DNA from: Treponema sp.
GTDB taxonomy: Bacteria > Spirochaetota > Spirochaetia > Treponematales > Breznakiellaceae
DNA length: 36,287 nt
Reading direction: 5' to 3'
Assembly (NCBI GenBank): GCA_031286095.1
Contig: JAITUY010000217.1
Location: 1 to 36,287, forward strand
The notes beneath the pieces were generated by a model, which saw only the letters and a program-made list of their open reading frames with translations, searched no databases and was not told where the DNA came from. The position numbers and the translations under genes were made by a program. Shown here one piece after another: positions 52 to 36,287 of the stretch (position 1 is its first letter; each line of letters opens with the position of its first letter).

Positions 52-696
52 ATATAAAGCCAGCCAAAACGTCGCATAACAGGACTGTAACTGCTTCGCC
101 GCCCATTGGGCGGCTTGGGCTACACAAAACCGTGTTCGGGCTTGCGCCCTCGGCACGGTTTTGTTCCGCCACATTTTTTTGCGCCCGTGAAACTGCTTCG
201 CAGTTTCTTTTTTATCTACTTCATATTCTTTTCCCTCGTCAAATATTCCTTCTATTCCATTTAAGGCATTGGGATACAATTCTAAAACCAATAATGCCGC
301 AGGGAATTTTTTGTCCTTATTTGTAATTCTATATTCTTTTGATTCTTTAAATCCAAACCTTTTATAATATTCAGGATCGCCATAAATTATTATTGCCTTA
401 TATCCCATTTCCTTTGATAATTTTATTATCATATCATTTGTAGTTTTAGTCTTAAACCATGTAATATATTTATTGGGATTACCTTCTTCATAAAAAGGCG
501 GATTAGGTAAATTTTCAATAAACCAATTATCAATATTTTGAAATAATTGTTTTTCTTCCTCAGTAACATTATATGAATAATAACTGCTGTTAATAACATG
601 ATGACAAGCACCAAATATACCAACTGGCTTTCCAGTTTTACCTGTATATCTTACTTGTATTCGTACATATTTTTGCCTATTACTGATACTTTCCAT
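40..696 (-). CDS. Probable chimeric ORF: N-terminal hypothetical-protein segment, C-terminal part of a GNAT (YhbS-like) acetyltransferase, and a tail encoded by a structured repeat
   Basis: GYKAIIIYGDPEYYKRFGF…FPAALLVLELYPNALNGIEGIF matches the C-terminal half of YhbS-type GNATs. The first ~87 aa do not look like a GNAT N-terminus. From about ETAKQFHG onward the frame runs through the repeat at 62-207. Confidence 0.5.
   Translation of the reverse strand: MESISNRQKYVRIQVRYTGKTGKPVGIFGACHHVINSSYYSYNVTEEEKQLFQNIDNWFIENLPNPPFYEEGNPNKYITWFKTKTTNDMIIKLSKEMGYKAIIIYGDPEYYKRFGFKESKEYRITNKDKKFPAALLVLELYPNALNGIEGIFDEGKEYEVDKKETAKQFHGRKKMWRNKTVPRAQARTRFCVAQAAQWAAKQLQSCYATFWLALYLFY
62..207 (+). repeat. 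Structured dispersed repeat, copy A (three hairpins after AACAGGACTGT)
   Basis: GCCGCCC-att-GGGCGGC (98-114); ACAAAACCGTG…CACGGTTTTGT (124-164); GAAACTGC-ttc-GCAGTTTC (189-207). Homologous to copy C. Confidence 0.8.
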
Positions 697-2680: not shown

Positions 2681-4477
2681 ATGGAAAAAAATACAATTTT
2701 AGCGGTGGTTCTTTCTACTCTTGTGCTTGTCGGTTTTTATGTGGTGCAGGGAGTATTCTTTCCTCGCGCGAAACCCGTTCAGCCGGAAGCTCAGCCGCCT
2801 GTAACGGCGGTTGCGCCTGAAACGGATTCGCAGGTTATCAAAAAAGACGGCAACCTGGCGGACGCGCAGGAAGTAGCGGCGCAGGGAGCAACGGCATCAC
2901 AGCCGGATACGGACGCAGGTCCGCGTGAAGTAGAGCAAATAACGGTAGATACGGAATATATCACCGTCGTTCTTACCAATGCGGGCGGCAATGTTGTTTC
3001 ATGGAAACTAAAAGATCATTTGGATAAAGATGAAAACGTTGACATGATCCTTTCAGGCGCGCAGTCAGCGCAGGCTTTTTCATTGGCGTTCGGCGGCATA
3101 GACGCCCAGCCTGTTACATCTTTGTTTTATGTAAATAAAATATCTGAATATTCAATAGAATTTTACCGCGACTTTTCAGACAATGCGGACGGAAGATTCC
3201 GCCTGATCAAACGGTACGATTTTAAGCCCAGGGATTATATGTTTGAGCTGACTGTAACTCTTGACGGCGGATATTTAATGTCTGGCTTTAATTTTGCAGG
3301 TAGCGCGTACACTCTTACATTCGGACCGCAAATTGGTCCCAAGTTTGAAAAACTTGATAACCGCTATGATTACCGCCACTACTTAACATTCGTAAACGGA
3401 AAAAGAAAAAACGCGAAGGTTAACGAGCTTATCGACACTCGTCCGTCGTGGGCGGCGATTTCCGGCAAGTATTTTACCTTTATCGCTATTCCCTATCTTG
3501 CGCAGTACAGCGTCTTTTTTTCTGACAAGCCGGAACAGGGTATACCTTCCGCTTCCAGATTTAGTATTGTTCGTCCAGCTATAAGCGTGTCTAAAGCCGC
3601 CGACACATACCGTTTTTATCTTGGACCTAAAACACAGGAAGCGCTTGCCGTCTATAATAACGGTAAAAACGAATTTGGACTTAAAGACACTCATCTTGAA
3701 GAAGCGGCAAGTACGCGCGGAATTTTGTCCCCGCTGGAAAGATTGTTAAAATGGCTTCTTTTAATTTTTTATAAAATAACACCTAACTACGGCGTTGCGA
3801 TTATCCTGCTTACGCTGTTTATAAAGCTCCTCTTTTTCCCGCTTACAAAAAAAGGGTCGGAAGCCACTTTGAGGATGCAGGCGCTTGCTCCTAAAATAAA
3901 GGAAATACAGGAAAAATACAAAAACAACCCGCAGAAACAGCAAATTGAAATGGGAAATTTTTACAAGCAGGAAGGTTACAACCCCCTTTCAGGCTGTCTT
4001 CCAATGCTTTTGCAAATACCAGTTTTGTTCGCTATGTACAATTTGTTCAATAATCATTTTGATCTGCGCGGGGCGGGATTTATTCCCGGCTGGATACCGG
4101 ACCTTTCCGTTCCCGAGTCTATCTGGAATTTCCCCGATGGTTTTAAACTGCCAATTTTACACTGGACGGCGCTTAGGGCTTTGCCGTTTATCTATGTCGG
4201 TTCGCAGTTAATCTACGGCAAAGTAACGCAAACGCCGGGACAACAGCAAAATACCGGACAGATGAAAATGATGTTATACGTCATGCCGATAGCGTTCTTC
4301 TTTATACTTTATGATGTGCCGTCAGGGTTATTGATATACTGGATTTTTTCTAACATTCTTACGCTGGTACAGCAGTTGATAATAAACAAGTACATTCTGG
4401 CAAAGAAAGAACAAACTTCCGCGCTACAAACGGAAGAAAAGAATGTTATAGCGCCCAAAAAAAAGAAAAACAGGTAG
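2681..4477 (+). CDS. yidC: Membrane protein insertase YidC
   Basis: N-terminal TM, periplasmic domain, then NYGVAIILLTLFIKLLFFPLTKKGSEATLRMQALAPKIKEIQEKYKNNPQKQQIEMGNFYKQEGYNPLSGCLPMLLQIPVLFAMYNL. Confidence 0.97.
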   Translation: MEKNTILAVVLSTLVLVGFYVVQGVFFPRAKPVQPEAQPPVTAVAPETDSQVIKKDGNLADAQEVAAQGATASQPDTDAGPREVEQITVDTEYITVVLTNAGGNVVSWKLKDHLDKDENVDMILSGAQSAQAFSLAFGGIDAQPVTSLFYVNKISEYSIEFYRDFSDNADGRFRLIKRYDFKPRDYMFELTVTLDGGYLMSGFNFAGSAYTLTFGPQIGPKFEKLDNRYDYRHYLTFVNGKRKNAKVNELIDTRPSWAAISGKYFTFIAIPYLAQYSVFFSDKPEQGIPSASRFSIVRPAISVSKAADTYRFYLGPKTQEALAVYNNGKNEFGLKDTHLEEAASTRGILSPLERLLKWLLLIFYKITPNYGVAIILLTLFIKLLFFPLTKKGSEATLRMQALAPKIKEIQEKYKNNPQKQQIEMGNFYKQEGYNPLSGCLPMLLQIPVLFAMYNLFNNHFDLRGAGFIPGWIPDLSVPESIWNFPDGFKLPILHWTALRALPFIYVGSQLIYGKVTQTPGQQQNTGQMKMMLYVMPIAFFFILYDVPSGLLIYWIFSNILTLVQQLIINKYILAKKEQTSALQTEEKNVIAPKKKKNR

Positions 4478-19844: not shown

Positions 19845-19935
19845 AGTAATAGAAATTTTACCACGAACCAACACGAACAAGGGAATAGAAGAACCTCTCG
19901 CGGAAGCGTAGCCCCTTTGGTTTGAGTTGGGTGTC

Positions 19936-20002
19936 TCACAAGTCCTGCAAGAATACTTTTCTATTGACAGCTGTTCGGAAAACTGAAGTTTCCGAACAAC
20001 TC
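19936..20002 (+). repeat. Short dispersed repeat, copy D, with hairpin GTTCGGAAAACTGAAGTTTCCGAAC
   Basis: Aligns with 26430-26519: CTGCAAgAATaCTTTTcTA … AACTGAAGTTTCCGAACAACTCTA. Hairpin at 19973-19997. Confidence 0.7.
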
Positions 20003-20189
20003 TAATATAACAAACAGCAACCCCTGCGTCTTTGCGTCTCCGCGCCTCTGCGAGATGTCTTTTCCGAAACAGCGCAGACGCGATATTACCTTGTTCGTTG
20101 GAAAAAAATTCCCCCGTAAAGTAAAGCGCCATTCATCTGCGCTCATATATATAGTATCCAATGTTGAAATGTTGGATACAGGAGTTTTT

Positions 20190-26410: not shown

Positions 26411-26519
26411 GCAACCATGTCGGTTGCCTTGCAAGTCCTGCATTTTTTCGGCCAAAGCCCTGCAAAAATGCTTTTTTATAAGGTAGTTATTAAGAAACTG
26501 AAGTTTCCGAACAACTCTA
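26411..26519 (+). repeat. Hairpin-rich repeat, copy E, ending at the methyltransferase stop codon
   Basis: GCAACC-atgtc-GGTTGC (26411-26427); GCATTTTT…AAAAATGC; 3' segment AAACTGAAGTTTCCGAACAACTCTA identical to copy D. Confidence 0.65.
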
Positions 26520-27161
26520 TTAAATATTTTTTCTTCCAATTAATATTATATCTTCCGTTATGCTTCCATCCATTTCTGTATAATTTAATTTATAATCTTT
26601 TATGATTTTGATTCCATTGTTCTCTAGCATATTTATTATTTCACCTTGTTCGTGATAATAAATATAATATTTATTCTTTCCGCCAAACGAAGTTTCTTCA
26701 AATCCATATTTGTTTCCGTTCATAAAACTGATATAAAAATAACCATTTTTTTTCAGCATTATTACGCTGTTTTTAATACATTTCTCAGTTTGTTCTTTAT
26801 TTAAATATGGAATTCCAAAACCTATTATTATTAGATTGAATTTCATGTTATTTTTAAATGTAATTATTGAGTCGCAGATAAAATTCCCATCAGGTACATT
26901 TTCCTTTGCTATTTTTATCATTTCTTTTGATAAATCAACTCCGGTAATATTTACATTTATTTTATTTTTTATATAACTGCTTATTTGGGCGGGTCCGCAC
27001 GCAAGATCAAGAACATTGTCGTTCTCCTTTAATAAATTATGTAAAAAATCATATGTACCATCATAATTATTTAACTTTCCAATTTTTTGCATAAATTTAT
27101 TTGCAGAATTATCATAAGATTTTATCGTTTCTATTTGATTATTATCCATTATTAAACTCAT
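26520..27161 (-). CDS. Class I SAM-dependent methyltransferase (AT-rich, accessory)
   Basis: NVLDLACGPAQISSYIKNKINVNITGVDLSKEMIKIAKENV…FNLIIIGFGIPYLNKEQTEKCIKNSVIMLKKNGYFYISFM. Markedly more AT-rich than neighbouring genes. Confidence 0.85.
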   Translation of the reverse strand: MSLIMDNNQIETIKSYDNSANKFMQKIGKLNNYDGTYDFLHNLLKENDNVLDLACGPAQISSYIKNKINVNITGVDLSKEMIKIAKENVPDGNFICDSIITFKNNMKFNLIIIGFGIPYLNKEQTEKCIKNSVIMLKKNGYFYISFMNGNKYGFEETSFGGKNKYYIYYHEQGEIINMLENNGIKIIKDYKLNYTEMDGSITEDIILIGRKNI

Positions 27162-35399: not shown

Positions 35400-35638
35400 G
35401 TTATTTTTTGACCCAAAAAAGGGCTTTTGGTTGCGAATTTAACCAAAATATACGCTTGAAGTTATTAGGAACGTACAAATTAGCATTATTTTATGAAAAA
35501 GATGACAGTTCGCAAGCTCTACTGTGATTCGTGCCATGACAGTGAGTGATTAGGTTATCCAAAAAGAATTTTTTACCATAAAGCACCGCAAAGGTGATGT
35601 CCGAAAAGCTTGAAAAACTTGTTCGTACACCGTTCTGG

Positions 35639-35868
35639 CTGTTTACGATGGTTTTTTGCGCCCGATAAGGAAAAATGCGAAGCATTTTTAAGGGCGCAAA
35701 AAACTGTGCTGGAGCAAAACACCACAAAGGCACTTGCGCCGACTGGTGTTTTGCGGAAGCCGAGCCGCCGACAGGCGGCGAAGCGTAAACAGTCCTGTTG
35801 AGGTTGCAGAAAAACAGAGTTTCTAAAAAAACGATTTCAAAATATGCCAAAAATTAGCCCCAAAATGC
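35639..35868 (-). repeat. Structured dispersed repeat, copy C (cloverleaf-like)
   Basis: Outer stem CTGTTTACG (35639-35647)/CGTAAACAG (35784-35792) encloses AAAAATGC-gaa-GCATTTTT (35671-35689), GCAAAACACCA…TGGTGTTTTGC (35714-35754) and GCCGCC-gaca-GGCGGC (35764-35779). Leader 35783-35868 matches copy B. Confidence 0.8.
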
Positions 35869-35873
35869 AAATT

Positions 35874-36037
35874 AGAGCCTATCCTGTTTTTTGTGTAAAT
35901 GAAAATCTCGATTTTTTTCCCATTACCATTTACACAAAATTTATGATAAGTCTAGTAGGAAAACTGCTGGAAATTTGATATTTCAAAAAGTAAAGAAAAA
36001 TGGAAAATCTATTTACACAAAAAACAGGATAGGCTCT
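35874..36037. mobile_element. MITE-like element with perfect 27-bp terminal inverted repeats and no coding capacity
   Basis: AGAGCCTATCCTGTTTTTTGTGTAAAT at 35874-35900; its exact reverse complement at 36011-36037; internal third copy of ATTTACACAAAA at 35928-35939. Confidence 0.8.
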
Positions 36038-36287
36038 TATTTTCTATTACTATAATTTTTAATATTTTACTATTTTCCCATTTCGTAAATATTTTATCAT
36101 CTTTTATTGGTTCTACCCAATCATATGATAATTCAATTTTTTGCCTTTCAAATATTTTTATATCTTTTACTTTAATTTCATTTCCATTTAATCTATATTC
36201 ATAAACTCCAAAATTTTCAAATGCCTTTATATCTGGTTCTTGATATTTTTTCTTATCCTCAATAATATAAAATTCACCTATATAATT
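36009..36287 (-). CDS. Partial AT-rich ORF entering from the right window edge and terminating inside the MITE-like element
   Basis: 93-codon open frame NYIGEFYIIEDKKKYQEPDIKAFENFGVYEYRLNGNEIKVKDIKIFERQKIELSYDWVEPIKDDKIFTKWENSKILKIIVIENKSLSCFLCK*; stop at 36011-36009 lies within the right TIR region. Confidence 0.55.
   Translation of the reverse strand, partial: NYIGEFYIIEDKKKYQEPDIKAFENFGVYEYRLNGNEIKVKDIKIFERQKIELSYDWVEPIKDDKIFTKWENSKILKIIVIENKSLSCFLCK

Follow-up and report, generated by a model that had tools for sequence, protein, structure and literature searches.

Integrons are searched for in genomes, and their integrases recognised, through an additional domain (PMC8352920, PMC9668308), the block between the GKGRKDR and HxLRH motifs, which Messier and Roy 2001, as cited in those two papers, called necessary for activity. 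Chromosomal integrons with some long attC sites (115-132 bp), and with recombinase and cassettes running in the same direction, are known from Treponema denticola, T. succinifaciens and T. brennaborense (PMC3607928). Here we describe repeats in a window of 36,287 nucleotides (the entire contig C17, JAITUY010000217.1) from a Treponema sp. of the Breznakiellaceae, the source being a 2.77-Mb draft genome (88% complete, 270 contigs), and these repeats are very probably the attC sites in a chromosomal cassette system that resembles an integron. They are likewise long, but differ from those of the described Treponema integrons (PMC3607928) in being mostly about 165-177 nt, in having 18-bp arms and in being accompanied by a predicted integrase without the additional domain. 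With the Vibrio cholerae superintegron (Vibrio cholerae repeats, VCR; structure 2a3v) the system has in common long attC sites, a branched variable terminal structure, bottom-strand folding and cassettes in one direction, but the V. cholerae IntI has the additional domain. Absence of the domain is shared with XerC/XerD and XerA; Xer proteins resolve chromosome dimers at dif, whereas here the gene is followed by an attI-like site and an array of cassettes. Two features are unusual in this system, a predicted integrase without the additional domain and cassette-specific arms.

Three copies of the repeat, and the end arm of one cassette, lie in the window:

63 to 80, + strand: end arm of the cassette ending at attC A, 18 nt, GCCAAAACGTCGCATAAC
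75 to 205, + strand: attC A, with R'' (CATAAC), L'' and the stems of the variable terminal structure
1029 to 1138, + strand: attC B, degenerate (11 bits, E 0.13), at an array boundary
35626 to 35802, - strand: attC C, full-length (covariance-model score 166 bits)

A sequence-only reading of the window had described copies A and C as members of a dispersed repeat family with compensatory changes in its stems, and both copies are present with the stems as it gave them. The long stem is ACAAAACCGTG/CACGGTTTTGT in A and GCAAAACACCA/TGGTGTTTTGC in C, with 5 of 11 pairs changed on both sides, and the last stem is GAAACTGC/GCAGTTTC against AAAAATGC/GCATTTTT, with two pairs changed on both sides. Copy C is at 35626-35802, and the 35803-35868 that had been assigned to it is part of an inserted miniature inverted-repeat transposable element (MITE); copy A is cut short, as described below.

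The family proved to be large, with 37 exact occurrences of AACAGGACTGT in the genome and 17 of the 12-mer CAACAGGACTGT, compared to 0 for a reversed control. When 18 copies were aligned over 180 columns, both-side changes were found in 29 of 61 pairs (shuffled mean 14.9, with none of 500 shuffles as high), and 91.9% of pairs were kept, compared to 38-46% when partners were slid by 1-3 columns. The pairing structure for this comparison was written from one of the aligned rows; this gives it an advantage when partners are slid, but cannot account for the double changes. For 57 sites from several genomes there were 553 double-change cells against 157 after shuffling, in an alignment fitted to the model. 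The selection on the folded form which the sequence-only reading had proposed is well supported. A simple scan for RYYYAAC/GTT behind integrases gave two sites only, so a covariance model was used instead, and the search of the host and its relatives which had been recommended gave 83 matches in the host (E no higher than 0.001), of which a few are partial. Within the family, 171 of 202 sampled genomes and 49 of 59 genera had sites.

Full-length copies start ..ATAAC-AGGACTGTAACTGC and end GTCAGTTACAGCCAGAAC-GTTATG, and their boxes R'', L'', L' and R', around AAC...GTT, surround a branched variable terminal structure. Outside window copies A and C, the R'' (RYYYAAC) and R' (GTTRRRY) boxes pair as in attC sites. 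The L''/L' boxes also pair, with a spacer and an extrahelical base; the L stem is 94% paired and A10, unpaired and invariant, may be the counterpart of the known extrahelical G/T. In all 24 sites folded the bottom strand was more stable than the top strand, as is expected from attC biology (PMC2727003). The sequence-only reading had not recognised the family, and had named a match to a known repeat class as an outcome telling against it; since the repeats match a known class, attC, that outcome was in part what was found.

The copies in the window are edges of array fragments, which lie at both contig ends and both point inwards, with ordinary chromosomal genes (YidC, FabH-like and Leu/Phe-tRNA-transferase-like) between them; the contig ends themselves coincide with attC repeats. 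In attC A the L' and R' boxes are missing after about position 205, so it is a truncated site (the covariance-model match at 75-243 scored 93 bits, its 3' part being forced), while its arm at 63-80 carries the C of a fixed mismatch at position 11, counted from the AAC end. In attC C the R' is GGTGTA, not GTT followed by RRR, and it is therefore probably damaged at the array boundary. In attC B, the third copy, R'' is supplied by the MITE and R' is GTTACC. The damage to these three edge sites would come from truncation and from the insertion, behind R'', of a MITE that is probably of IS1182 type. The sequence GGTGTACG follows attC C in the window.

A tyrosine recombinase gene (1394-2536, + strand) was found on contig C217 of the same genome, followed on one strand by an attI-like sequence, GTTAAGTGCAATTGGTGC, at 2961, a NUDIX gene and an attC site at 3574-3749. 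The same order of recombinase, attI-like site and attC cassettes was found in eight further genomes, so that an integrase gene, an adjacent attI (assigned by sequence only) and a cassette array stand together, with recombinase and cassettes in one direction, in nine genomes. The attI-like arm lay 69-1166 nt behind the integrase at 9 of 9 loci, and 16-17 of its 18 positions matched the end of cassette 1; the attI-like sites have the same arm, and the same position-11 mismatch, as the cassettes. The source genome holds two integrases, C217:1394-2536 and C172:887-2092, which are 56% identical, and an attI-resembling sequence, GTTATGCG, behind the C172 gene may mark a second array.

The C217 protein has the tyrosine recombinase core, but scored 217.7 bits against the integron integrase model TIGR02249, below the cut-off of 265 (as was a further score of 200.8), and its alignment to the integrase structure 2a3v breaks, with 34 query residues opposite 76 chain residues. 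The block between GKGRKDR and HxLRH, that is the IntI-specific additional domain (about 40 residues, around patch III), was missing from 25 of 25 aligned relatives, while three canonical IntI of the family have it; seven more integrases had the same 72-residue spacing, and the domain is thus absent from all 32 sequences examined. The best match among solved structures was XerA (5hxy). Because the additional domain is absent the recombinase should not be filed as an IntI, though the system would appear to work like an integron: the predicted attC sites show the attC features that were looked for, the integrase lacks a defining feature, and its function is a predicted one. The N-terminus of about 100 residues (for example in L061) has no Pfam match and is common to many of these integrases, and homologues of lower identity (39-53%) were also found in other families of the phylum.

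Canonical IntI scored above the cut-off in only 5 of the 202 genomes. Four of these (G014, G015, G017 and G018) gave no covariance-model match for sites of the present kind and the fifth (G144) does not appear in the list of genomes that have them, but both searches were thresholded (E up to 1e-50 for IntI, Infernal's stricter filters for the sites), so absence here means not detected. A scan for canonical attC near three canonical IntI loci gave a single site, a number too small to serve as a control for the arms described next.

The ends of the cassettes set this system further apart. Each of 31 cassettes lying between two adjacent sites was examined by setting its first 18 bases against its last 18 in reverse complement, and 30 of the 31 had 18-bp terminal arms pairing only with their own partner, the single exception having a MITE-type end. 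Over positions 9, 10 and 12-18 the arm identity was 0.943 within a cassette, compared to 0.430 between the two sides of one array attC and 0.411 after shuffling, where none of 10000 shuffles was as high as the within-cassette value. Position 11 was A at 31 of 31 starts and, read as reverse complement, G (C on the top strand) at 30 of 31 ends, giving an A/C mismatch on the top strand and a T.G wobble on the bottom strand. In known attC sites the R boxes are reported to pair over 9-11 nt (PMC2727003), compared to 18 here, and since the two sides of an array attC belong to different cassettes, the long pairing requires either an excised circle or contact across the gene. The circle form was more stable than the array form for 24 of 24 sites (mean -62.4 vs -52.1 kcal/mol). 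No earlier description of matching 18-base cassette ends was found. In many cassettes (such as those of L202, L201 and L200) the 18-nt end arm is directly preceded by TGGTGTACG or a close form, and the start arm directly followed by CTAAAATTT or a similar sequence.

In 25 of the 31 cassettes the longest open reading frame (ORF) ran in the attC direction, and the domains encoded include PemK, Fic, methyltransferase, peptidase S51 and nitroreductase. Genome G145, a single contig of 4,059,867 bases, has two copies of one cassette (about 1.4 kb, including its attC), which show 3 mismatches in 1429 positions and have flanks that are unrelated from the junctions on. This suggests that the cassettes move as units; as the edges of the duplicate lie at the junctions it would also be a sign, though an indirect one only, of recombination by the integrase at G^TT.

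Taken together we put at roughly 0.7 the probability that this is an integron with an Xer-like recombinase without the additional domain, folded single-stranded attC sites, cassette-specific 18-bp arms and a strand-marking mismatch. In the cassette system as we read it, the recombinase would bind the hairpin into which the attC bottom strand folds and exchange it at G^TT with a double-stranded attI-like site, by which circular cassettes would be inserted and excised. Full pairing of the arms, in the excised circle or across the gene but not elsewhere, would lengthen the recombinase-binding stem from about 7 to 18 bp, and the fixed mismatch (A/C on top, T.G on the bottom) could mark the strand. 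The longer arm may take over part of the work done by the additional domain in canonical integrases. Several observations pull the other way. An integrase homologue was found in 80 of 202 genomes, 73 of which also have sites, compared to 171 genomes in which sites were found, and many arrays have no detected integrase. G143 has five listed sites but a partial integrase match only. No recombination was seen, and a cassette could also have been duplicated through homologous recombination between sites. Because the source genome is a draft, another integrase could be missing from it; G145, assembled as one contig and giving no canonical IntI, makes this less likely but leaves some doubt.

The many genomes with sites but no detected integrase, and the existence of canonical IntI in the family, would fit an arrangement like the clusters of attC sites lacking integron integrases (CALIN), in which sites without a working integrase of their own were moved in trans by a canonical IntI and the domain-less recombinase was an unrelated neighbour. 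This seems unlikely, as the recombinase lies directly upstream of the attI-like site and array in nine genomes, including G145, and the canonical IntI genomes are without detected sites of this kind. The sequence-only reading had left open whether the folded form acts as an RNA or as single-stranded DNA used by a recombinase, and strong covariation by itself cannot separate the two. That the repeats encode a structured RNA, the covariation reflecting RNA function, can nevertheless hardly be so: searching Rfam at gathering thresholds, as had been recommended, gave no match for them, the transcribed top strand folds less well than the bottom strand at 24 of 24 sites, and they sit exactly at cassette junctions beside a tyrosine recombinase and attI-like site, with AAC/GTT boxes and cassette-specific arms. 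The single-stranded DNA option is well supported. Sites spread over many contigs, many of them adjoined by a real MITE, might also be a dispersed miniature transposon or repetitive extragenic palindrome (REP)-like family spread by a transposase, but the MITE has terminal inverted repeats (TIRs) of its own and is distinct from the sites into which it has inserted, and between the sites lie whole cassettes with mutually pairing ends, making this explanation highly improbable.

If the preferred reading of an integron with a domain-less, Xer-like recombinase is true, it could reflect integrons at an early stage of their evolution, a separate origin or a secondary loss; in a tree of the integrases the Xer rows had very long branches and the rooting was arbitrary, and no verdict between loss and never having gained the domain was drawn. 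Searches based on the domain would miss this cassette system, spread as it is across a whole spirochete family, and an attC system without the additional domain would make how attC could predate its recognition domain a testable question. The genomes G145 and G143 may be those of T. primitia ZAS-2 and T. azotonutricium ZAS-9, which we take as a lead and not as a test. Should these identities hold, the published absence of integron traces from T. primitia and T. azotonutricium (PMC3607928) would be contradicted.

The remaining features of the window are an ORF over attC A and elements at the other two sites:

40 to 696, - strand: ORF of 218 amino acids with no Pfam match, oriented against attC A
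928 to 1031, + strand: diverged copy of the attC-targeting MITE, between CGCCTAAC and AACAGGACTGT
35800 to 35868, - strand: inner end of the attC-targeting MITE, with TIR GAGGTTGCAGAAAAAC at 35800-35815, interrupted by another element
35869 to 36042, strand not assigned: second short element, in or next to the MITE at attC C, with 32-nt terminal inverted repeats that are 97% complementary (AGAGCCTATCCTGTTTTTTGTGTAAAT...)

The last codons of the ORF are attC A read antisense, so it is a fused or truncated gene. The MITE with TIR GAGGTTGCAGAAAAAC has 41 matches in the genome, and in the 35 distinct placements listed every copy that retains its start follows a ..YYTAAC-type end. Nearly all stand before AGGACTGT-like sequence, the orientation is constant and AAC is found on either side of the element; because truncated copies and copies with diverged flanks are among them, no exact rate of 35 in 35 is claimed. 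An ORF-less repeated element was considered as a cassette and rejected, as it follows the AAC of R'' and not G^TT. Two longer relatives at contig ends (C95 and C210) have the start of a putative IS1182-family transposase behind a near-identical end at the same AAC, the N-terminal 111 amino acids matching NF033551 at 54 bits (cut-off 270), as a fragment at a contig end. The IS1111-attC elements (ISKpn4, ISPst6; PMC11187229) also insert at one end of attC, but the present MITE is bounded by true terminal inverted repeats, and a putative IS1182-family transposase begins in its longer relatives; a literature search brought up no evident paper on IS1182-type elements that target attC. Stretches like the second short element were also seen in L044, L045 and L047. 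Another dispersed repeat, AAACTGAAGTTTCCGAACAACTCTA, is present in the window at 19926-20007 and 26419-26522 (96% identical over 28 nt), and a similar stretch flanks one MITE copy.
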